Of a stretch of 64,000 nucleotides of DNA, positions 52,231-63,869 are shown in pieces. The first letter of the stretch is position 1. Every line of letters begins with the position of its first letter. Below the pieces are notes generated by a model that was not told the DNA's origin, searched no databases, and saw only the letters and a program-made list of their open reading frames with translations. The position numbers were made by a program, and so were the translations under genes. Source of the stretch: an uncultured Alphaproteobacteria bacterium (GTDB taxonomy: Bacteria > Pseudomonadota > Alphaproteobacteria > Methylaequorales > Methylaequoraceae); assembly GCA_902563505.1 (NCBI GenBank), contig CACEXK010000001.1, positions 124,001-188,000 of the forward strand, written 5' to 3'.

Positions 52231-53022
52231 TTAAGTTTCTCTTGCTATTTCGGTTAATTTTTTTTCAAATTTTATGTCGTGGGATAAAATTAAAAAAGCC
52301 AATATAAATTTTTTAATTGGATCAACCTCGTAGGTAAATTCAGTAATAAAACTATCAAGTTTTTGCTTAGAGAGTAATTTTCTTGCTAATTTCTGAAATA
52401 TCTTCTCGCCCCTATCATATTGGGATTGAGTATTACATTTTAAATAAATATCATCAACTTTAGATTTTCCCATAGAAGGATGAAGATGCTCAAACATAAT
52501 ATTTTTTCTATTTAATACAACACCATCTCTGTGTGAAATCCATGAATGAAAATTATCACAATAAACATGATCAAATTCAGGGTGTAAAACATACCCTAGT
52601 TTTTTATATCTTTTTAATGATAAGATTACAGTTTTAACCATATAAACTCGAGTATCTTTTTCCTCAGTTCCATCACTCACATTTAAAACAATTTCTTGTG
52701 ACCAATCTGCTGTATTAAGTATTTTTGTATCCCAACCTTTTTCTGGAATTGTATCATCAGTTGCAACAATTATACAATTCGCTTTCGCATACCTTGCTGC
52801 AATATTACATTTTTTCACAATACCAAAACTATAAGGTTCAAAAATATCAATTAAATTATTATCGATATTTTTCCTTTTGTTTAATTCTTTTTTATTTGAT
52901 GAGTCAAAACAGGTTATATATTGAATTATTTCAGGATTTTCTGCTAATTCTAACCATTTTTTTCTAGTTTCAATTGCTAATTTTGTCCTACAGGTTGGAT
53001 GGATGCATGAAATTTTGTACAT
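52231..53022 (-). CDS. Glycosyltransferase-like protein (GT-A fold)
   Basis: Using the ATG at 53022 gives 263 residues and the start MYKISCIHPTCRTKLAIETR, which resembles the NTP-binding beginning of GT2-like proteins; an ATG 39 bases upstream is open. NIAARYAKANCIIVATDDTIPEKGWD is like the strand carrying the DxD motif (here TDD). HRDGVVLNRKNIMFEHLHP could contain the base. It is a likely sugar transferase at the border of the polysaccharide cluster, on the opposite strand. Donor and acceptor are unknown. Confidence 0.55.
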   Translation of the reverse strand: MYKISCIHPTCRTKLAIETRKKWLELAENPEIIQYITCFDSSNKKELNKRKNIDNNLIDIFEPYSFGIVKKCNIAARYAKANCIIVATDDTIPEKGWDTKILNTADWSQEIVLNVSDGTEEKDTRVYMVKTVILSLKRYKKLGYVLHPEFDHVYCDNFHSWISHRDGVVLNRKNIMFEHLHPSMGKSKVDDIYLKCNTQSQYDRGEKIFQKLARKLLSKQKLDSFITEFTYEVDPIKKFILAFLILSHDIKFEKKLTEIARET

Positions 53023-53118
53023 AGTGACAAAATCTGCAGGTTTTATGCCAAGGTTAATCAAATATCTAACATAAGATACATTTAAAAATTTTTATGTTAA
53101 TTTAATATTTGTAGGATT

Positions 53119-54108
53119 ATGAAGAATATTGTTGTAACTGGGTGCGCTGGTTTTATTGGGAGTCATCTATGCGAGAGATTGACTAATGAAAATTTAAATA
53201 TTGTTGGTTTGGATAATTTAAGTAATGGTAAAATCTCAAATTTAAAAAAGTTAACTAATTGCAAAAATTTTGATTTTATAGAATCTGATATCAATGATGA
53301 GTTCAAAATGAAGCAGATTTTTAAAAAATCAGATATTTTATTCCACCTTGCTGCATTAGCAGATATTGTTCCTTCTATAAAAAATCCTGATTCTTATTTT
53401 TCCTCTAATGTATTGGGTACCTATAATATAATGAAATTATGTAAAGAACATAATTTAAAAAAAATTATTTACGCAGCATCTTCATCATGTTATGGAATCC
53501 CAAAAAAGTATCCAACTCCTGAAAATGCAGATATTAATCCGCTATATCCATATGCATTAACTAAAAGACTTGGTGAAGAAATTGTTATACATTTTGGAAA
53601 GTTATTTAATATTCCAACTGTTAGTCTTAGGTTTTTTAATGTTTTTGGGCCAAGAGCAAGAACTTCAGGAGCTTATGGTGCTGTTTTTGGAGTTTTTTTA
53701 GCTCAAAAACTAGCTAATAAACCTTTTACAGTTGTTGGAGACGGAGAACAGACCAGAGATTTTACATATATAGACGATGTTATTAATGCACTAATTGAAG
53801 TAATGGATCAGAAAATTAGAAATGAAATTTTTAATGTTGGGTCTGGTAAAACATATAGCGTCAATCATTTAATTAAACTATTAGGAGGTGGGAAGAAAAT
53901 ATATATTCCAAAAAGACCAGGTGAACCTGATTGTACTTATGCAGACATAACTAAAATACTAAAAAAAACAAAATGGAAACCTTTAATTACTTTTGAAGAA
54001 GGTATAGAAAAATTATTAGAAAATATTAATGATTTTCAAGATGCTCCTTTGTGGGACAAAAAATCAATAGAAAACGAAACAAAAGATTGGTTTAAATATT
54101 TAACATAG
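53119..54108 (+). CDS. NAD-dependent sugar epimerase/dehydratase (extended SDR)
   Basis: A 329-residue extended short-chain dehydrogenase. The NAD-binding loop is GCAGFIGSH (8-16), AASSSCYG (119-126) carries the catalytic Ser, and the active pair is Tyr145-Lys149 in YPYALTKRLGEE. RFFNVFGPRA and VVGDGEQTRDFTYIDD are the nucleotide-sugar blocks of GalE/WbpP-type UDP-hexose 4-epimerases. It probably acts on a nucleotide-activated hexose for the surface polysaccharide. The gene opens the rightward cluster and has its own spacer upstream (96 bases). Confidence 0.88.
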   Translation: MKNIVVTGCAGFIGSHLCERLTNENLNIVGLDNLSNGKISNLKKLTNCKNFDFIESDINDEFKMKQIFKKSDILFHLAALADIVPSIKNPDSYFSSNVLGTYNIMKLCKEHNLKKIIYAASSSCYGIPKKYPTPENADINPLYPYALTKRLGEEIVIHFGKLFNIPTVSLRFFNVFGPRARTSGAYGAVFGVFLAQKLANKPFTVVGDGEQTRDFTYIDDVINALIEVMDQKIRNEIFNVGSGKTYSVNHLIKLLGGGKKIYIPKRPGEPDCTYADITKILKKTKWKPLITFEEGIEKLLENINDFQDAPLWDKKSIENETKDWFKYLT

Positions 54109-54133
54109 ATTAATTTAAATATAAAAGAAAAAT

Positions 54134-55681
54134 ATGAATACAAAAAACACATTCGATAATTTTATAAAAAAAAAAATACAAGATATAAATTCTTTGCAAA
54201 AAATTGCAAATGACTTAAAGAAAAGAAAAAAAAAAATTATCCTTTGTCATGGTACATTTGATCTACTTCATGCTGGTCATTTTAGACACTTTCAGGATTC
54301 AAAAAATTTAGGCGATGTGCTTTTTGTAACTATAACCGCAGATAAATTCATAAATAAAGGACCAAGAAGACCAATTTTCAATCAATATTTAAGAGCGGAA
54401 ATGATTGCATCACTTTCATATGTTGATTATGTCTCAATAATTGATGATGCATCAGGATTGCCTGCAATAAAAAAGCTTAAACCTGGTGTTTATGTTAAAG
54501 GTAAAGACTATAAAGACAAAAATAAAGATTTAACAAAAAAAATTTTAATTGAAGAAAAAGAAGTTAGAAAAAATGGAGGTTATTTAAAATTTACAGATAA
54601 CATTACATTTTCTTCTTCTTCTTTAATAAATGAAAATTTTTTTTCATATGAGGAAAAACTTGGAAAGATTATTAATCAATATAAAAGCAAAGGAATTGGA
54701 TATTTTCATAAATTAATCAATGAACTTAAAAATGTAAAAGTTATGCTTATCGGTGATTCAATAATTGATGAATACATATACACCAATACCCTTGGCAAAT
54801 CAGCAAAGGAAAATATCTTGGCAACACTTAAAAAAGATGAACAAATTTTTGCTGGAGGTGCAATAGCTGCAGCAAATCACATTTCTGATTTTTGCAAGAA
54901 AGTTGTTTTAGTTACTGGAATAGGTGATAGACCAAATAACTACGAAAATTTTATTAAAAAAAATTTAAGAAAAAATGTAAAACTAGTTGATTTAAAGTTA
55001 AAAAAAAGACCAACAACAAAAAAAACAAGATTCATAGATTCAAGCTATATGACAAAAATGTTCGAAGTATATGATATGAATGATATGCCCCTTGAAAAAA
55101 GTGATGAAAATAAAATTTTAAAAAAAATTGAAAAAATTTTACCACAAATTGATATTGCTATTATAACTGATTTTGGTCATGGATTAATTTCAGATTTGAT
55201 TATCAATAAAATTACAAAAGCAAATATTTTTGTAGCAATTAATGCTCAAACAAACAGTGCCAATAGGGGTTTTAATTTAATTACAAAATATTCTAAAGCT
55301 GACTATGTTTGTATTGATGAACCAGAGTTTAGATTGGCAGCACATAATAAAACGACTCCATTAACCGAATTGTTACCAGTCAGTAATAATTTACCTGATG
55401 CTAAAGTTTTTATTGTGACGACTGGAAAAAACGGTTGTTTAATAAAAATGAAAAAAAAAATAATTGAAATTCCTGCTTTTACAAACAAAGTCATTGATAC
55501 AATTGGGGCTGGTGATGCATTTTTTGTTGTTTCTAGCTTATTTGCTTATCTTAATACTAACCCAGTTGATATAGGTTTTATTGGTAATGTATCAGGTGCG
55601 ATAAAAGTTAATATTTTAGGGCATAGTTCAAGTATTAAAAAAATACAACTTTTGAGGTTTATTGAAACTGTATTAAAATAG
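54134..55681 (+). CDS. Bifunctional nucleotidyltransferase-sugar kinase, HldE-like with inverted domains
   Basis: A 515-residue fusion. Domain 1 (about 30-165) is a nucleotidyltransferase: LCHGTFDLLHAGHFRHF with HAGH at 46-49, then GPRRPIFNQYLRAEMIASL and YVKGKDY. Domain 2 (about 195-515) is a PfkB/ribokinase-type kinase: LIGDSIIDEYIY, FAGGAIAAANHI and IDTIGAGDAFF (GAGD at 458-461). E. coli HldE has the kinase first and the transferase second, so the order here is reversed. Both active-site motifs look intact. Likely role: phosphorylation at C1 and nucleotide activation of a heptose or related sugar. Substrate is inferred. Confidence 0.85.
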   Translation: MNTKNTFDNFIKKKIQDINSLQKIANDLKKRKKKIILCHGTFDLLHAGHFRHFQDSKNLGDVLFVTITADKFINKGPRRPIFNQYLRAEMIASLSYVDYVSIIDDASGLPAIKKLKPGVYVKGKDYKDKNKDLTKKILIEEKEVRKNGGYLKFTDNITFSSSSLINENFFSYEEKLGKIINQYKSKGIGYFHKLINELKNVKVMLIGDSIIDEYIYTNTLGKSAKENILATLKKDEQIFAGGAIAAANHISDFCKKVVLVTGIGDRPNNYENFIKKNLRKNVKLVDLKLKKRPTTKKTRFIDSSYMTKMFEVYDMNDMPLEKSDENKILKKIEKILPQIDIAIITDFGHGLISDLIINKITKANIFVAINAQTNSANRGFNLITKYSKADYVCIDEPEFRLAAHNKTTPLTELLPVSNNLPDAKVFIVTTGKNGCLIKMKKKIIEIPAFTNKVIDTIGAGDAFFVVSSLFAYLNTNPVDIGFIGNVSGAIKVNILGHSSSIKKIQLLRFIETVLK

Positions 55682-55705
55682 AGTTTTGTCGTTAATAATT
55701 CTGAT

Positions 55706-56698
55706 ATGAAGATTTTAGTAATTGGTGGTGGTGGATATGTTGGGAGTCTATTAGTTGAGAGACTTTTAAAACAAAAATATGAGGTATTAGTACTAGATCT
55801 TTTTTTATATGAAAATCCTAAATTTTTATTTAGTGATATTATTAATTCTCAACTTTTAACTATAATCAAAGGAGATGTGAGAGACAAAGACTTGCTAGAG
55901 AATATTATTTCATCAGTTAATATTGTAATTCATTTGGCTTGTATCTCCAATGATCCATCTTTTGATCTTAATCCTAAACTTGGAAAATCAATAAACTATG
56001 ATTGTTTTTATCCTCTAATCAAGATTTGCAAACAAAAATCTATAGATAAATTTATTTATGCCTCCTCTTCTTCAGTTTATGGGGTGAAAAATGTTCAAAA
56101 TGTTACAGAGAACCTTCCCTTGGAACCATTAACAGATTACTCAAAATTTAAAGCATTATGCGAAGATATTTTGTTAAATGAATCTAGTAACAGAATTTGT
56201 TCAACTATTCTCAGGCCCGCGACAGTTTGTGGTTATAGCAGAAGAACAAGGCTTGATGTTATTGTAAATATTCTAACAAATAATGCATACAATAGAAGGA
56301 AATTTATAATTCACGGTGGTTCTCAAAAAAGGCCAAATATTCATATTAAAGACATGGTTAGTGCTTATTTATCAGTTCTTACTTCTGAAAAGAAATTAGT
56401 TAATGGACAAATTTTTAATGTGGGTTATGAAAATCTTAGCTTGATAGAAATTGGAAATATTGTAAAAGAAGAAGTTGGTAAAGATGTTTCAATTGAATTT
56501 GAGAAAACTAATGATAATAGATCATACCATATTTCTTCAAAAAAAATTTTAGAAAAGATAAATTTTAATCCCAAATTTTCAATTAAAGATGCTATCTCTA
56601 ATTTAATCGATGCTTTTGAAGCTAATTTGTTAAAGAATAGTCTTAAAGACCCAAAGTATTTTAATATTCAAACTATGAAATTGTTAAATTTAGTATGA
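55706..56698 (+). CDS. NAD-dependent sugar epimerase/dehydratase (second copy)
   Basis: A 330-residue extended SDR. The NAD site is IGGGGYVGS, ASSSSVYG supplies the Ser, and Tyr145-Lys149 occur in TDYSKFKALCED. RPATVCGYSRRTRLDVIVN differs from the first epimerase and is closer to the NAD-dependent epimerase group seen in LPS O-antigen loci, where Arg residues replace the usual FxNVYGP. It may be a C4/C5 epimerase or reductase. Its stop overlaps the E1 alpha start by four bases, tying it to the downstream genes. Confidence 0.85.
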   Translation: MKILVIGGGGYVGSLLVERLLKQKYEVLVLDLFLYENPKFLFSDIINSQLLTIIKGDVRDKDLLENIISSVNIVIHLACISNDPSFDLNPKLGKSINYDCFYPLIKICKQKSIDKFIYASSSSVYGVKNVQNVTENLPLEPLTDYSKFKALCEDILLNESSNRICSTILRPATVCGYSRRTRLDVIVNILTNNAYNRRKFIIHGGSQKRPNIHIKDMVSAYLSVLTSEKKLVNGQIFNVGYENLSLIEIGNIVKEEVGKDVSIEFEKTNDNRSYHISSKKILEKINFNPKFSIKDAISNLIDAFEANLLKNSLKDPKYFNIQTMKLLNLV

Positions 56699-57660
56699 AT
56701 AATCTAGAAAAAAGAATTCTTATGAATCTTCTTAAGATTAGATTGGTAGAAAAGCAAATCTCAGAGAGATATGCTGAACAACTTATGCGATGTCCCGTTC
56801 ATTTATCGCTTGGTCAAGAGGCATGTGCGGTTGGAGTTTGTCAATCTTTAAATATAGCAGACCAAGTCTATTCGTCACACAGATGTCATAGCCATTATTT
56901 AGCAAAATCTGGTAATCTCAAGGCTATGTTATGTGAACTTCATGGAAAAAGATCTGGTTGTTGTGGAGGTCGAGGCGGTTCAATGCATCTTATGGATGTG
57001 AGCGTCGGAATGATGTTAAGTATCCCAATTGTAGCGTCAATAATACCAGTTGCTGTAGGTGCTGCATTATCATTCAAATTAAAAAAGAAAAAAAATATTG
57101 TTGTTGTTTTTTTTGGAGATGCAGCGTTGGAGGAGGGTGTTTATCATGAAGCGGCTAATTTTGCCTCAATTCATAATCTCCCGATAATTTTTGTGTGTGA
57201 AAATAATAAATATTCTTGTTTTACCAATATTGAAAATAGGCAACCAAATGATGATTTCACAAGATTTGCAAAGTGTCATAAAATTAAGTCACACAAAATG
57301 TCTGGTAATAAAGTTATGGAGATATTTTATAAAACTAAAGATATAATTAGTTCTATAAAGAAGAATCCATCTCCTTTCTTTCTACAACTCGATACTTATA
57401 GGAATGTTGAGCATTGTGGGCCAAATAATGATGATTACTTAAATTATAGAAATAATAATGAAATTAGTTACTGGTTACAAAATGATCCAATAAATTTGTA
57501 TACAGAATTTTTGAAAAAAAAAAAAAAGTTATCTGATAAAACTTTAGATAAGATCATATTAAAGTTAAATAAAGAAATTGATGAAGCATTTCTTTTTGCA
57601 AAGAATGATAAGTTTCCTAAAATTGATACCTTAGACAAATTTATTTATGCACAAAAATAA
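56695..57660 (+). CDS. TPP-dependent dehydrogenase E1 component, alpha-like subunit
   Basis: A 321-residue protein with the E1 alpha signature: HLSLGQEACAVGVC, SHRCHSHYLAKSG, GKRSGCCGGRGGSMHLMD, and the TPP/Mg motif GDAALEEGVYHEAANFAS (141 onward) ending at CENN. Pyruvate/acetoin dehydrogenase E1 alpha subunits share it. No lipoyl E2 or E3 gene is in the cluster, so a complete oxidative complex is not encoded here. In a sugar cluster it could act as a two-carbon carboligase or decarboxylase on a 2-oxo acid. It overlaps the beta-like gene by 14 bases. Confidence 0.85.
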   Translation: MNNLEKRILMNLLKIRLVEKQISERYAEQLMRCPVHLSLGQEACAVGVCQSLNIADQVYSSHRCHSHYLAKSGNLKAMLCELHGKRSGCCGGRGGSMHLMDVSVGMMLSIPIVASIIPVAVGAALSFKLKKKKNIVVVFFGDAALEEGVYHEAANFASIHNLPIIFVCENNKYSCFTNIENRQPNDDFTRFAKCHKIKSHKMSGNKVMEIFYKTKDIISSIKKNPSPFFLQLDTYRNVEHCGPNNDDYLNYRNNNEISYWLQNDPINLYTEFLKKKKKLSDKTLDKIILKLNKEIDEAFLFAKNDKFPKIDTLDKFIYAQK

Positions 57661-58732
57661 AAGAATCATTACGGCCTCGGAGGCAATTTTAGAATCTACA
57701 GAGCAATACTTAGATAAATTTAAAAATTTTATTGTTATTGGTGAAGGTGTGAATGATCCAAAAGGAATATTTGGAACAACACTTAATTTATTTAAAAAAT
57801 TTGGAAATACTAGAATAATTGAGTCTCCTGTTTCTGAAAATGGAATAACAGGTATATCTATAGGTTTGTCAATGAATCATTTCAAAGTATTACTTGTGCA
57901 TCAGAGAGTTGAATTTGCTCTTTTGTCACTCGAACAAATTTTTAATAATGCAGCTAAAAGCTTTTATGTTTCTAATGGAACTCACAAAGTTCCAATCGTT
58001 ATAAGAATGATAATCGGAAGAGGTTGGGGACAAGGCCCAGCACACTCACAAAGTTTAGAAACAATTTTTTCTCATATACCTGGCTTGAAGGTTTTAATGC
58101 CATCATCCCCTTATGATGCCAAAGGTATGCTGTGGTCTGCGCTTGAAGATCCTAATCCAGTTTTAATAATTGAACATAGATGGTTTCATTATGTTAGGGG
58201 TTATGTTCCAAAAAAAAATTATAAAGTAAATATTGATAAACCAGCTTTACTGATCAAAGGCAATAATATAACTATTGTTGCAAATTCTTATAATGTAACA
58301 GAAGTAATTTTTAGTTCAAAGATTTTGAATAAATTTGGAATTTACCCAGAAATTATTGATCTGAGAGTTTTAAGACCATTAAATATACAATTAATTATTC
58401 AATCTTTGAGAAAAACAAAGAATCTTCTCATTGTTGAAACTGGTTATAAACAATATGGAATTGGAACAGAAATAATTGCTCAAATTTCTGAGAACAAGTT
58501 AGTTGATAAAATTAAGTCAATTTCAAGAATTGGTTTGCCGGATCACCCAACACCCTCATCAAGATCATTGGCTAAAAAATACTATAGATCATCCAAAGAA
58601 ATTATTTATGAAGTTGTAAAACAACTCAATCTTAATCTTGAATTAAAAAAAAAAATAATTAGTTATTATAAAAAAAAATTGCCATCCACTAAAGTAGATG
58701 TCCCTAATCCAGAATTTAAAGGACCTTTTTAA
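57647..58732 (+). CDS. TPP-dependent dehydrogenase E1 component, beta-like subunit
   Basis: A 361-residue protein that pairs with the preceding gene: GEGVNDPKGIFGTTL resembles the E1 beta start (usually GEDVG), ESPVSENGITGISIGLSM is the pyrimidine-binding block with the catalytic Glu, and FEALL-like VHQRVEFALLSLEQIFN follows. LEDPNPVLIIEHRW and DLRVLRPLN are in the C-terminal transketolase domain. It is somewhat longer than a standard E1 beta (about 325-330) because of a C-terminal tail ending NPEFKGPF. Together with the alpha subunit it should form an alpha2-beta2 TPP enzyme. One-base overlap with the first aminotransferase. Confidence 0.85.
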   Translation: MHKNKRIITASEAILESTEQYLDKFKNFIVIGEGVNDPKGIFGTTLNLFKKFGNTRIIESPVSENGITGISIGLSMNHFKVLLVHQRVEFALLSLEQIFNNAAKSFYVSNGTHKVPIVIRMIIGRGWGQGPAHSQSLETIFSHIPGLKVLMPSSPYDAKGMLWSALEDPNPVLIIEHRWFHYVRGYVPKKNYKVNIDKPALLIKGNNITIVANSYNVTEVIFSSKILNKFGIYPEIIDLRVLRPLNIQLIIQSLRKTKNLLIVETGYKQYGIGTEIIAQISENKLVDKIKSISRIGLPDHPTPSSRSLAKKYYRSSKEIIYEVVKQLNLNLELKKKIISYYKKKLPSTKVDVPNPEFKGPF

Positions 58733-59835
58733 TGAAAGTAAGATACTCATATTTACCACAACAATTTGAAAAAATTGATGATTTGCTTTTCAAAATAAAG
58801 AAATTTATTAAAACAGGAGATTTTACTCTTGGTAAGCCATTAAAAGAATTTGAAAAAAAATTTGCAAAACTAATGAATGTTAAGTATGCAATTGGAGTTA
58901 ATTCAGGTACCGATGCAATAAAATTATCACTTAAAGCATTAGGCATAGGCCCTGGTGATGAAGTTATTACAGCTTCTAATACATTTATTGCTACTGTTGG
59001 GGCTATTAGTGAAATTGGTGCTAAGCCAGTCTTAGTCGATTGTGATGATACATTTTGTATGGATGTTAATCTCATAGAAAAATTAATTACAAACAAAACT
59101 AAAGCAATAGTTCCAGTTCATTTTACTGGATACATGACTGACATGGAAAAATTATCAAAGATTGCAAAGAGGTATGGGCTATTTGTTATTGAAGATGCCT
59201 GTCAATCAATATTAGCTTCACAGAATAAAAGGATTGCGGGAACTTGGGGCGAAACAGGTTGCTTTTCTTTACATCCATTAAAGAATCTTAATGTTTGGTC
59301 TGATGGTGGAGTGATTATTACAAATAAAAAAAGTATATATAAAAAACTTCAGCTTTTAAGGAACCATGGATTAAAAAATAGAGATGAAATTGAGATACTT
59401 GGCTACAATTCAAGATTAGACACAATTCAAGCTGTTGTTGGAAATTGGCTTATTCCAAAAACAAAAGATATAGCAAAAAAGAGAATTAGGAATGCCAATT
59501 ATTATGACAAAAAATTCATTAAAATTGATGGTATCAAGATCCCACCTCGACCCAAAAATATGAAGATAGTTTTTCATTTGTATATAGTATTTGCAAAGGA
59601 TAGAGATAAACTCTTGAAATACTGTTTAAAGAGAAATATAGAAGCAAAAATTCATTATCCGATTCCCCTTTATCAACAAAAGGCTCTTAAGAAACTTTGT
59701 TATAAAAAAGGGGCTTTTCCGGTTACAGACTATCATTCTAAAAATATTATAACATTTCCTGTTGATCAACATTTAAAAAAAAATGAATTAGATTATGTAA
59801 TTCAAACTGTTAAAGAATTTTATGAAAAAACATAA
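58732..59835 (+). CDS. DegT/DnrJ/EryC1 family sugar aminotransferase (first copy)
   Basis: A 367-residue PLP enzyme. GVNSGTDAIKLSLKALGI is the phosphate-binding loop, VIEDACQSI carries the Asp that contacts the PLP nitrogen, and Lys184 in SLHPLKNLNVWSDGG forms the Schiff base. This family transaminates keto-nucleotide sugars such as 4-keto-6-deoxyhexoses. It is translationally coupled to the E1 beta gene and overlaps the second aminotransferase by 14 bases. The C-terminus contains IHYPIPLYQQ, common to the family. Sugar specificity is not readable. Confidence 0.92.
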   Translation: MKVRYSYLPQQFEKIDDLLFKIKKFIKTGDFTLGKPLKEFEKKFAKLMNVKYAIGVNSGTDAIKLSLKALGIGPGDEVITASNTFIATVGAISEIGAKPVLVDCDDTFCMDVNLIEKLITNKTKAIVPVHFTGYMTDMEKLSKIAKRYGLFVIEDACQSILASQNKRIAGTWGETGCFSLHPLKNLNVWSDGGVIITNKKSIYKKLQLLRNHGLKNRDEIEILGYNSRLDTIQAVVGNWLIPKTKDIAKKRIRNANYYDKKFIKIDGIKIPPRPKNMKIVFHLYIVFAKDRDKLLKYCLKRNIEAKIHYPIPLYQQKALKKLCYKKGAFPVTDYHSKNIITFPVDQHLKKNELDYVIQTVKEFYEKT

Positions 59836-60943
59836 TATATTGAAAATTCCATATGTGAACCTATCTAAACAATTTGAAGATGAAAAAAAAGAATTATTGA
59901 ATGAAATTGAAAAAGTTCTTTCATCAGGTAATTATATTCTTTCAGATGAAGTTGAAAAATTTGAAAAGAATATTTGTAAATATCTTAAAGTAAAGTTTTG
60001 CATTGGAGTAAACTCTGGGACAGATGCTTTGATTCTTTCTCTTCTTGCACTAAATATTGGTCCTGGAGATGAGGTGATCACTCAAGCAAATAGTTATATT
60101 GCCTCAGCAGCTGCAATAAATGCAGTTGGTGCAAAACCTGTTTTTGTAGATGTTCTTGATGATCAAACTATGGATTCAACAAAACTTAAATCTGTTATCA
60201 ATTCAAGAACAAAAGCAATTATCCCAGTTCATTTGACAGGAAGAATGTGTGAAATGGATAAAATAAATATTATTGCAAAGAAATTTAATCTCAAGGTTAT
60301 AGAGGATTCTGCTCAATCTTTTGGTTCAAAATATAATAATAAAAATAGTGGTTATTATGGTGATTGTGCTGCTTTTTCAACTCATCCTCTAAAAAATCTT
60401 AATGCCTCCGGGGATGGAGGATTTATCGTAACAAATAAGAAAGAAATACATAATTTTGTAAAACTTAAAAGAAATCATGGTCATTTAAACAGAAATAGGG
60501 TGAAGTTTTGGGGAATGGTTTCTAGATTAGACTCTATTCAAGCAGCAATACTTAATTTCAGATTAAAAAGAGTTAAAAAGGTTCTTTCAAAAAGAATGGA
60601 AAACGCTAAATTATATATAAAGAATATTGATAAACAAAATATCTATTACCCTGATTTTAGAAAAAACTGTATGGATACATATCATCTTTTTGTAATTCAG
60701 GTAAAAAAAAGAAATCAATTAAAAAAATATTTATTAGATAATAAGATAGAGACAAATATCCATTATCCTATTCCAATTCATAAACAAAATTTTTTTATAA
60801 AAAAATTTAAAAATCTTAGTTTACCTAATACTGAGAGTCAGGCTAAAAAGATTTTGAGTTTGCCTATTAATCAATATCTGGAAAAATCACAAATATTAAG
60901 AATTTGTAATAATATCAATAATTTCTATAACAATTATCGATAA
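59822..60943 (+). CDS. DegT/DnrJ/EryC1 family sugar aminotransferase (second copy)
   Basis: A 373-residue paralogue of the preceding gene. Landmarks: GVNSGTDALILSLLAL, VIEDSAQSFGSKYN, and Lys191 in STHPLKNLNASGDGG. It differs from its neighbour in VEDSAQS versus EDACQS, in AAFSTHP, and in having an N-terminal extension IPYVNLSKQFEDEKKE; so it is a diverged duplicate or separate acquisition rather than a recent repeat. Two amino-transfer steps, or two different keto-sugars, are implied. Confidence 0.92.
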   Translation: MKKHNILKIPYVNLSKQFEDEKKELLNEIEKVLSSGNYILSDEVEKFEKNICKYLKVKFCIGVNSGTDALILSLLALNIGPGDEVITQANSYIASAAAINAVGAKPVFVDVLDDQTMDSTKLKSVINSRTKAIIPVHLTGRMCEMDKINIIAKKFNLKVIEDSAQSFGSKYNNKNSGYYGDCAAFSTHPLKNLNASGDGGFIVTNKKEIHNFVKLKRNHGHLNRNRVKFWGMVSRLDSIQAAILNFRLKRVKKVLSKRMENAKLYIKNIDKQNIYYPDFRKNCMDTYHLFVIQVKKRNQLKKYLLDNKIETNIHYPIPIHKQNFFIKKFKNLSLPNTESQAKKILSLPINQYLEKSQILRICNNINNFYNNYR

Positions 60944-60946
60944 AAA

Positions 60947-62065
60947 ATGAAATTTAAACTTGATTATGAAAAAATATTAGAAGAGTTTAATCATAATTTA
61001 ATTTATAAGTTAAGAAAACATGGATTGAATAAAAAATCTCTTAGTTTGTGGGTTCCAAATGATAATTTTTTAGAAAGTTTTAAAAGTCTTTACTTTTCAT
61101 TAAAAGAAAATGGAATAAATGATTTTGAAATTGATGTTAAAAAAGACACCGTTAAAAGCATTGATATAAAAGCAATTAAAAAAGTTTTCAACGAAATAAA
61201 AATTGTTGAAAATAAAAATAAATTCAAAATTTCAATTAATAAAATTTCAGAATTCAAAGGAAAAAAAGATATTATTGATCAGGTAAAAAAAAGAGAAATA
61301 TCAAAAATTGATTATATTTACGGAAGTTTAGGAACTAATAAAAAACAGGAAAAAATAAAAGAATATTTCAAAAAAATATACCAATCAAATTTTAATGAAT
61401 TTAAAAAACAAAAAATTTTAGAACAAAAAGAATTTCGATCAAAAAAAATAGTATTTAACAACCAAATTTATGAAATAAAATATAAAAAAGATAAAAGTTT
61501 TATTAGCATAGACTCAAATACCGAGGATAAATCTTTAGTGGGTGCTATGATTCTTTTTAATAAACTATTTTTTGGAAAAAATATTTTGGATGTAATCAAT
61601 AATTCTTCAAATCAATTTATGAAATATATACTAAAATCTACAAAAACTAAGATTGAGGGTATCGTTTTACCATTTAATCTCGGAAAAGAAGTTTTTATTG
61701 TTCATAATATTTGGCTTGTATTCTCTGATTATTATAAACAAAAAGTTAACAAGGTTATAAAAAAAAATAATTCTTACTGGATTTTACTAGAGAAAAGAAA
61801 AAGAGAAATTCACTGCAAAAAAATCATAAAACTTTTCTTGAAAGAAAATAATATTAAAAATGATTCAATTATATTTAATTATATCGAAAAAGATTTAAGT
61901 GGTAATCCAATGAGAGTCTTTATTAATATTAAAGAAAATATTCCCTCACTAGAAAAACCCAATTTAATTAGAAAATTAGAAAGTTTTCTTAAAAAAAACC
62001 TTGATCCAGGCCTGCAAGTTTATTACCAAGAAAAAAAAGATTTGAATAAAATTAGAAGGTTATAA
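60947..62065 (+). CDS. Unrecognised protein in polysaccharide cluster
   Basis: A 372-residue, lysine-rich, probably soluble protein with no signal peptide or membrane segment, which I cannot assign. The first half is low-complexity and charged. A central segment, FISIDSNTEDKSLVGAMILF followed by FGKNILDVI, is faintly like the IscU/NifU scaffold core (ASASxxxxxxxGK) but lacks its cysteines. The last 60 residues include GNPMRVFINIKENIPSL and DPGLQVYYQEKKDLNKIRRL, which look conserved. It sits 3 bases after the second aminotransferase and 56 bases before the radical SAM gene, so it probably acts in the same pathway. Confidence 0.8.
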   Translation: MKFKLDYEKILEEFNHNLIYKLRKHGLNKKSLSLWVPNDNFLESFKSLYFSLKENGINDFEIDVKKDTVKSIDIKAIKKVFNEIKIVENKNKFKISINKISEFKGKKDIIDQVKKREISKIDYIYGSLGTNKKQEKIKEYFKKIYQSNFNEFKKQKILEQKEFRSKKIVFNNQIYEIKYKKDKSFISIDSNTEDKSLVGAMILFNKLFFGKNILDVINNSSNQFMKYILKSTKTKIEGIVLPFNLGKEVFIVHNIWLVFSDYYKQKVNKVIKKNNSYWILLEKRKREIHCKKIIKLFLKENNIKNDSIIFNYIEKDLSGNPMRVFINIKENIPSLEKPNLIRKLESFLKKNLDPGLQVYYQEKKDLNKIRRL

Positions 62066-62121
62066 ATAAAATATTTATCAAAAAATAATTATTGTCGTTT
62101 ATAGTATGATACTTTGTTTAT

Positions 62122-63240
62122 ATGCTGATGAAACGAAAAAATGAAGAACTTATTTTAGATGGAACCAAAGTCCAGTGGCATATGGATAGAGTTTCTCAAT
62201 GGGAAAAAGGTGAAAAAATAGCTCCAATTACCATTGACATGGCCCTTACAAGAGCTTGTAACTATGGCTGTCATTTTTGTTATGCAATGTTACAAGAAAA
62301 TGATAGATCAATAATTAACAAAAGAGTAATTACAGAGTTTTTAGAGGATTCAGCTGAAATAGGTGTTAAAGCCATAAGCTTTGTATCGGATGGCGAAAGT
62401 ACAATATCTCCAGCTTTTATCGATGGTGTGAAATTAGGCAATAAACTAGGAATTTCAATGGCAGTTGGTACGAATGGCTTCGTTTTAACAAAAGAAAAGC
62501 TTGAGGATGTTTTACCTCATTTAACATACATAAGAATAAATATTTCTGCAGGAGAAAAAAAAAGATATGCAGAAATAATGGGAGTTAAAGAATCATATTT
62601 TGAAAGAGTTGTACAAAATATAAAAGATATGGTTAAAATTAAGAGGAAAAATAATTTGTCAGTTACAATTGGTTTGCAAATGGTTTTGATGCCAGAATAT
62701 GCAGATCAAATTATTCCATTAGCAAAATTAGGAAAAAAACTTCAACCTGATTATTTAATTATAAAGCATTGTAGTGATAATGAAGACGGAGATCTTGGTG
62801 TTGATTATGATGGATATAAAAGTCTTTTTAATTTGTTAAAAAAAGCTGAATCCTATTCTGATAAAAATTTCGAAGTTAAAATAAAATGGTCCAAAATCAA
62901 ATCTGGAGAAAAGAGAACTTATAAAAAATGTTACGGAGCCCCATTCATGATTCAAATATCTGGTTCGGGTCTGGTTGCACCCTGTGGAATGCTATTTAAT
63001 GAAAAATATAAGAGATATCATATAGGAAATATTTGTCATACAAGATTTAAAGAAATTTGGAAATCAGATGCTTACTGGGAAGTAATGAATTATTTAGCCT
63101 CAGGAAGTTTTGATGCTCAAACCATGTGTGGATCATTATGTTTGCAACATAAGGTAAACGAAGCACTTGATAGCCATGTAAAAGGAATTAATAAATTAAA
63201 ACCAATTCATAAATCAATTCCACATGTAAATTTCATTTAA
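62122..63240 (+). CDS. Radical SAM protein with SPASM-like C-terminus
   Basis: A 372-residue radical SAM enzyme. The cluster-binding CxxxCxxC is Cys46, Cys50 and Cys53 in ALTRACNYGCHFCYAM. GVKAISFVSDGEST is the GGE-like motif (here SDGE), and INISAGEKKRY is a later SAM-contact strand. The C-terminal third has further cysteines: KKCYGAPF, VAPCGMLF, GNICHTRFKEIW, and MCGSLCLQ. These match an auxiliary iron-sulfur (SPASM/Twitch) domain. Substrates in this class are peptides or sugars; in this context a sugar is likely. A start at the second ATG (62128) is also possible. Confidence 0.87.
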   Translation: MLMKRKNEELILDGTKVQWHMDRVSQWEKGEKIAPITIDMALTRACNYGCHFCYAMLQENDRSIINKRVITEFLEDSAEIGVKAISFVSDGESTISPAFIDGVKLGNKLGISMAVGTNGFVLTKEKLEDVLPHLTYIRINISAGEKKRYAEIMGVKESYFERVVQNIKDMVKIKRKNNLSVTIGLQMVLMPEYADQIIPLAKLGKKLQPDYLIIKHCSDNEDGDLGVDYDGYKSLFNLLKKAESYSDKNFEVKIKWSKIKSGEKRTYKKCYGAPFMIQISGSGLVAPCGMLFNEKYKRYHIGNICHTRFKEIWKSDAYWEVMNYLASGSFDAQTMCGSLCLQHKVNEALDSHVKGINKLKPIHKSIPHVNFI

Positions 63241-63245
63241 TTCTG

Positions 63246-63869
63246 ATGAAAAAATTTCCTCAAAAGATTTTTAAAAATACTGAAACTTTTGCAAAAGAAT
63301 ATCTTGAAGAAGTTTCTAGGGTTTCCAAAAAATTAGACTTAAAGAAAATTAGTAAAATATGTATTTATTTGGAAAAACTTTATGCAAAAAAAAAAAATAT
63401 TTTTATATGTGGTAATGGAGGATCAGCTTCAATATCTAATCATTTTGTTTGTGATCATCAAAAAGGTAGTAGTATGGAAACAAAGTTGATGCCAGGAATA
63501 ATTTCTCTATCTTCAAATATTGAAATAATTACGGCGATAAGTAATGATATATCTTATGATCATATCTTTTCATATCAGCTTGAAAGATTGGCCAAGCCAG
63601 GTGATGGTTTGATTACAATTTCATCATCTGGAAATTCTAAAAATATTATATTGGCAATAGAATGCGCAAAAAATAAAAAATTAACTACTATTAGTTTGAA
63701 TGGATTTAACGGTGGTAAGGCTAATAAAATCAGCCAAATAAGTCTTAATGTCCCAAGTAGAAATTATGGTGTTGTTGAGGATATTCATCAGTCTATAATG
63801 CATATTTTGTCTCAATCATTGAGAATGAGAAATCTTAAAAAAATAAATATTGAGAAAATTTATTTTTAA
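63246..63869 (+). CDS. SIS-domain isomerase, GmhA-like
   Basis: A 207-residue phosphosugar isomerase. FICGNGGSASISNHFVCDH is the GmhA phosphate-binding loop, and ITISSSGNSKNIILAIECAK the second sugar-phosphate loop. GVVEDIHQSIMHILSQ contains the catalytic Glu and His expected in sedoheptulose-7-phosphate isomerase. It therefore probably converts sedoheptulose 7-phosphate to D-glycero-manno-heptose 7-phosphate, feeding the HldE-type protein upstream in the cluster. It starts 5 bases after the radical SAM gene. Confidence 0.9.
   Translation: MKKFPQKIFKNTETFAKEYLEEVSRVSKKLDLKKISKICIYLEKLYAKKKNIFICGNGGSASISNHFVCDHQKGSSMETKLMPGIISLSSNIEIITAISNDISYDHIFSYQLERLAKPGDGLITISSSGNSKNIILAIECAKNKKLTTISLNGFNGGKANKISQISLNVPSRNYGVVEDIHQSIMHILSQSLRMRNLKKINIEKIYF

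Follow-up and report, generated by a model that had tools for sequence, protein, structure and literature searches.

Sugar branching by E1 alpha/beta pairs is already known from antibiotic biosynthesis, namely from AviB1/AviB2 (avilamycin), Pau11/Pau12 = Plm8/Plm9 (paulomycin), aldgamycin and KbDH-alpha/beta (kibdelomycin), where the avilamycin and paulomycin cases have genetic support and KbDH has been shown to act in vitro (PMC4425429, PMC4802897, PMC12247030). In kibdelomycin, the branch is known to be transaminated. A 4-keto sugar is the acceptor of the single-chain enzyme YerE, and is the proposed acceptor for the AviB/Pau-type pairs. A 2025 review describes E1-pair branching mainly from antibiotics, and branching in LPS as the work of YerE-like enzymes. 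Heptose modification has been studied separately: in Campylobacter jejuni a C4-dehydrogenase and a C3-dehydratase (HS:5) have been proven on GDP-heptoses, with Cj1427 oxidizing GDP-heptose at C4 (PMC10680097). In the LPS locus of Coxiella burnetii, CBU0678, an HldE-like protein with reversed domain order, is needed for full-length LPS and is described as being of unknown function, and the PDH-E1-like genes of this organism have been counted towards acetyl-CoA supply (PMC5423948).

We analyzed a stretch of 64,000 nucleotides from an uncultured alphaproteobacterium (the window), which encodes an E1 alpha/beta pair among sugar genes. We favour, with moderate confidence, the reading that this pair acts in nucleotide-heptose biosynthesis, as a lipoyl-independent E1 alpha2-beta2 carboligase transferring a C2 unit from pyruvate to a 4-keto NDP-heptose. 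The observations behind this reading are intact catalytic residues, no E2 or lipoate machinery, a separate phylogeny and a conserved neighbourhood; the donor, the acceptor, the branch position, the order of steps and every product are what we infer. Our search of open-licence papers found none on E1 pairs branching envelope heptoses. What is new here is the envelope-heptose setting, the spread of these pairs, and their association with DegT pairs.

Gene content of the cassette

The cassette spans approximately 53119-63869, i.e., more than the region 56695-60943 singled out by the first-pass annotation, and contains the following genes, with a further gene at its edge:

52231-53061, minus strand: protein with weak GT2 similarity, bordering the cassette; conserved within genus g8
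53119-54108, plus strand: SDR (GalE-like), EpiA
54134-55681, plus strand: HldE-like protein with reversed domains (nucleotidyltransferase, then PfkB kinase)
55706-56698, plus strand: SDR, EpiB (ORF call and Pfam)
56695-57660, plus strand: E1 alpha, TPP-binding, PF00676
57647-58732, plus strand: E1 beta, PF02779 and PF02780
58732-59835, plus strand: DegT1, DegT-family aminotransferase
59822-60943, plus strand: DegT2, DegT-family aminotransferase
60947-62065, plus strand: protein without a Pfam family
62122-63240, plus strand: radical SAM/SPASM protein
63246-63869, plus strand: SIS-domain isomerase, GmhA-like

This layout, based on ORFs and Pfam, confirmed the earlier description of an E1 pair lying between a sugar epimerase and two DegT genes, with neighbours overlapping by 1-14 bases: in the ORF list the overlaps are 4 (SDR/E1 alpha), 14 (alpha/beta), 1 (beta/DegT1) and 14 bases (DegT1/DegT2). 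E1 alpha matches Pfam E1_dh (1.3e-56), E1 beta matches Transket_pyr (5.9e-26) and Transketolase_C (2.8e-20), and both DegT1 and DegT2 have DegT matches of approximately 1e-100. The E1 proteins are not of the YerE type, as they are two chains matching PF00676 and PF02779/PF02780.

Pfam, alignment and, for E1 beta, structure prediction place the pair in the E1 fold with TPP catalytic residues. Alignment with human PDH demonstrated that the TPP motifs are indeed intact, as had been noted in the first-pass annotation, with the TPP/Mg motif GDAALEEG...ENN kept, as are beta Glu64, beta His133 and the His of the alpha loop; we take these three residues to be the equivalents of human beta-Glu59, beta-His128 and alpha-His263. 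Both subunits score below the NCBIfam PDH cut-offs (259 vs 393.9 bits for E1 alpha, and 242 vs 321 bits for E1 beta). The alpha loop, EHCGPNND, is three residues longer than the PDH loop GHSMSD, and E1 beta carries a GRGWGQGP loop and a C-terminal FKGPF tail, both typical of the clade described below. A predicted model of E1 beta, built with 39 family sequences, has a mean pLDDT of 89.8 and low confidence in the C-terminal tail when modelled as a single chain; its best match is human PDH E1 beta (TM-score 0.86 by query length), and a fold search showed that it shares its fold with DXS and transketolase.

The closest solved structure to EpiB is 6vo6/6vo8 (E 1.1e-38), which we take to be Cj1427, a GDP-heptose C4-dehydrogenase, and we propose from this resemblance that EpiB makes the 4-keto acceptor. 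DegT1, with 3uwc as its closest solved structure (E 3.4e-118; presumably linked to Coxiella), and its paralogue DegT2 are probably true aminotransferases, since both keep the PLP lysine (SLHPLKNLNVWSDGG in DegT1 and STHPLKNLNASGDGG in DegT2). They are 48% identical over the part compared and are usually paired in related loci, and could form a heterodimer or serve two amination sites. The HldE-like and SIS proteins score below the NCBIfam cut-offs for HldE (140 vs 521 bits) and gmhA (127 vs 209 bits), and are related to heptose enzymes as candidate, rather than established, equivalogs; a heptose is therefore a likely, rather than a demonstrated, substrate. The proposed roles are activation of a heptose phosphate for the HldE-like protein and sedoheptulose-7-phosphate isomerase for the SIS protein. 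The protein encoded at 60947-62065 has weak similarity to IscU/NifU_N, and a fold search returned weak IscU-like matches only.

Lipoyl machinery is apparently missing from the host and its family

The first-pass annotation reported no E2 or E3 near the pair, and this holds well beyond the locus: E2 is also missing from the whole assembly of the window genome (1.27 Mb, 87% complete). We compared 60 genomes, 32 from the same family (the window genome included) and 28 from class relatives, with assemblies that are 54-96% complete. E2 was found in 0 of 32 family genomes vs 23 of 28 class relatives, and LipA (lipoyl synthase) scored above the cut-off in 0 of 32 vs 25 of 28. GcvH is present in one of the 32 family genomes and not in that of the window, and POR was found neither in the window genome nor in any of the 32. 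No full AceE was found in the window assembly, where the one weak match is probably a transketolase-like protein. The family thus apparently lacks PDH/OGDH E2, LipA, POR and, with one exception, GcvH.

Chance absence from all 32 incomplete family assemblies is not credible. The E1 pair does not belong to a lipoyl complex in its host, a role that the lack of both E2 and LipA in 32 of 32 family genomes as good as rules out. We also considered the pair as the replacement of this lineage for a lost PDH; with the pair present in only about one-third of the 32 family genomes, this is unlikely.

The window pair belongs to a separate E1 clade

The phylogeny against PDH and acetoin E1s suggested in the first-pass annotation was run with 73 concatenated alpha and beta pairs (a quick IQ-TREE run, with SH-aLRT as the only support measure). 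The window pair, the pairs from other sugar clusters and a few relatives form one clade of 53 with an SH-aLRT of 100, and this clade excludes every PDH- or acetoin-type pair in the tree with an E2 nearby or a lipoyl domain, so that the window pair lies outside all E2-linked E1s. Three features mark the clade: a three-residue insert in the alpha loop (EHCGPN.D vs GHS...SD), GRGWGQG or a close variant ahead of the beta His, and a C-terminal extension ending in F.GPF that is missing from the PDH and acetoin rows, and also from one clade member, L132.

Two E1 pairs from Streptomyces plasmids, L130 and L133, are placed within the clade. In L130 the pair is found among genes for acyl carrier and condensation-domain proteins, not sugar genes, and the Streptomyces E1 relatives in the plasmid collection likewise have PKS/NRPS-like neighbours.

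The cassette is conserved across related loci

A genome scan showed that at least 543 stretches encode relatives of E1 beta, and we examined the best 80 of these loci using mechanical ORF calls and BLAST. Among these 80, 40 clade loci are at least 18 kb long, and of these 30 contain HldE, 30 EpiB and 32 EpiA (matches to EpiA and EpiB can include other SDRs), i.e., roughly one in four of these long loci is without HldE or EpiB. SIS is present in 18 of the same 40 loci. The DegT and radical SAM partners, whose co-occurrence the first-pass annotation had proposed to survey, do accompany the E1 pairs, in 21 and 16 of the 40 respectively. In 21 loci, the EpiB gene comes immediately before that of E1 alpha, often overlapping it. 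Over all 80 of the best loci, where counts are lower bounds owing to short contigs, E2 or E3 was found in none. Control loci around E2-linked E1s all contain E2 or lipoyl sequence (12 of 12), and just 1 of 12 contains any cassette gene. The window pair is an E1 alpha/beta pair without E2 in a nucleotide-sugar cluster. On the three points by which the first-pass annotation proposed to judge its reading, the pair lies apart from the PDH E1s, no E2 occurs elsewhere in the genome, and the neighbourhood is conserved.

Another genus of the family also has the cassette, at approximately 58-84% identity, with the radical SAM/SPASM protein the most conserved (84% identical between genera) and the unclassified protein 60947-62065 only 37-39% identical. 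In most of the loci examined (the best 80 of at least 543), a homologue of the latter immediately precedes the radical SAM gene, and a short C-terminal version of approximately 110 aa is found in L054, L073 and L087. A plasmid of Azospirillum oryzae (L131) carries the full cassette set.

Several loci vary this theme. For example, the E1 pairs of L042-L045, a distant clade branch, adjoin a DegT protein in which His replaces the PLP Lys, as in the ColD/RfbH 3-dehydratases, and in L043, the one of these loci annotated in full, a 4,6-dehydratase-like SDR, a GHMP kinase and an NTP transferase are found alongside. By analogy, this gene set would allow a synthesis with the steps known for yersiniose, in which E1 replaces YerE and activation is of the heptose type. 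A single-chain, acetolactate-synthase-type TPP enzyme shares the cluster with the E1 pair in L041, L056, L061, L062, L074, L084, L090, L093, L098, L105, L121 and L123, and two C-C bonds may thus be made in some clusters. In L041, L046, L131, L132 and L134, a gene for a NUDIX hydrolase is repeatedly seen close to the pair. In L039 (G007:C3, 12278-14053), frame changes break E1 alpha and EpiB, which are either pseudogenes or assembly errors.

Proposed pathway and alternative explanations

In the proposed pathway, the SIS protein would convert sedoheptulose 7-phosphate to heptose 7-phosphate, from which the HldE-like protein would make an NDP-heptose, and EpiB, whose gene overlaps that of E1 alpha, would oxidize C4 to a ketone. 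E1 alpha-beta would then decarboxylate pyruvate on TPP and pass the acetyl carbanion to the C4 ketone rather than to lipoyl, so that a branched sugar with a 4-C-acetyl group results. A DegT enzyme would transaminate the branch ketone or another carbonyl, the radical SAM protein would make a further change, and glycosyltransferases would place the sugar in an envelope polysaccharide. The first-pass suggestion that the pair adds a two-carbon unit to a nucleotide sugar stands as the best-supported function, with the exact chemistry, including the steps above, being proposed. Its statement that TPP-dependent branching of sugars is known for YerE-like single chains and not for E1 pairs is wrong, given the antibiotic cases described above. 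More tentatively, and as a possibility that we would not yet favour, a large family of lipoyl-free E1 pairs, so far without a name (at least 543 stretches, from many phyla), could make amino-branched C9 sugars from heptoses for polysaccharides of the envelope, with the radical SAM protein and its partner protein modifying them further.

Two variants of this chemistry are unlikely, each for its own reasons. The pair could act early, joining pyruvate to an aldose phosphate to give a deoxy-ketose phosphate for the SIS isomerase and the HldE-like protein to work on; in favour are the conservation of both of these genes next to the pair and the fact that DXS and transketolase, with the same fold, perform such chemistry, but the closest conserved neighbour is an SDR and not the SIS gene, the known E1-pair carboligases use keto-sugars, and GmhA-type enzymes already have an ordinary cellular substrate, which together make an early step improbable. 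Alternatively, the same chemistry could use another donor or site, e.g., hydroxypyruvate to give a hydroxyacetyl branch, or branching at C3. Antibiotics do show E1-pair branching at either C3 or C4; nevertheless, we give this variant little weight, as the known E1-pair branches are all C2 units (acetaldehyde equivalents), and EpiB suggests C4, provided that its similarity to 6vo6 extends to function.

Supply of an acyl group by the pair, either to N-acylate an amino sugar or to load a carrier protein, would fit the clustering of an in-clade Streptomyces relative with acyl carrier and condensation-domain proteins, but no carrier protein or lipoyl domain is seen in the cassette, and we know of no precedent for direct acyl transfer from E1 to an amine, making this explanation very doubtful. 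Finally, service as the E1 in a conventional complex of the pyruvate or branched-chain dehydrogenase type with E2/E3 elsewhere in the genome, despite the fold and catalytic residues of PDH E1, can be rejected on the absence of E2 and LipA from all 32 family genomes and the tree position apart from all E2-linked E1s, together with scores under the PDH family cut-offs.

Comparison with known systems

The carboligase reading has its closest parallel in the AviB/Pau/KbDH pairs (alphaKADH2), which, like the window pair, are two-subunit E1s without E2 in sugar clusters, and which add a C2 branch to a keto-sugar that is later reduced, methylated or transaminated. These pairs, likened here by their published description, belong to actinobacterial antibiotic clusters and act on deoxyhexoses or pentoses, whereas the window pair is part of a heptose-type cassette with HldE-like, SIS, DegT-pair and radical SAM partners. 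YerE, in the synthesis of yersiniose A of the LPS O-antigen, also uses TPP to add a C2 branch to a 4-keto nucleotide sugar, but it is a TPP flavoprotein with one chain, from the decarboxylase superfamily, and the window pair belongs to another TPP superfamily. Since the review cited above separates E1-pair branching (antibiotics) from YerE-like branching (LPS), the present reading would join the two, linking E1-pair branching with envelope sugars and adding a large set of new ketone-acting carboligases.

The E1s of pyruvate, acetoin and branched-chain dehydrogenases have their fold, TPP site and catalytic Glu and His in common with the window pair, which differs from them in having no E2, the three-residue alpha-loop insert, the GRGWGQG loop, the FxGPF tail and a separate clade. 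Pairs of this kind are labelled, e.g., “pyruvate dehydrogenase”; should they be C2-transferases, they would represent a widespread route to branched envelope sugars. The GDP-heptose pathway of C. jejuni resembles our proposal in deriving a heptose from sedoheptulose 7-phosphate, in oxidation at C4 and in optional 3-deoxygenation, and differs in having no TPP enzyme; its nucleotide is GDP. The Coxiella LPS locus CBU0674-CBU0693, which we know from papers alone, encodes a phosphoheptose isomerase, SDRs, HldE-like CBU0678, whose reversed domain order is that of the window HldE-like protein, and PDH-E1-like CBU_0686/0692/0693. If our broader proposal is true, these same gene types in the Coxiella locus would gain an assigned role.
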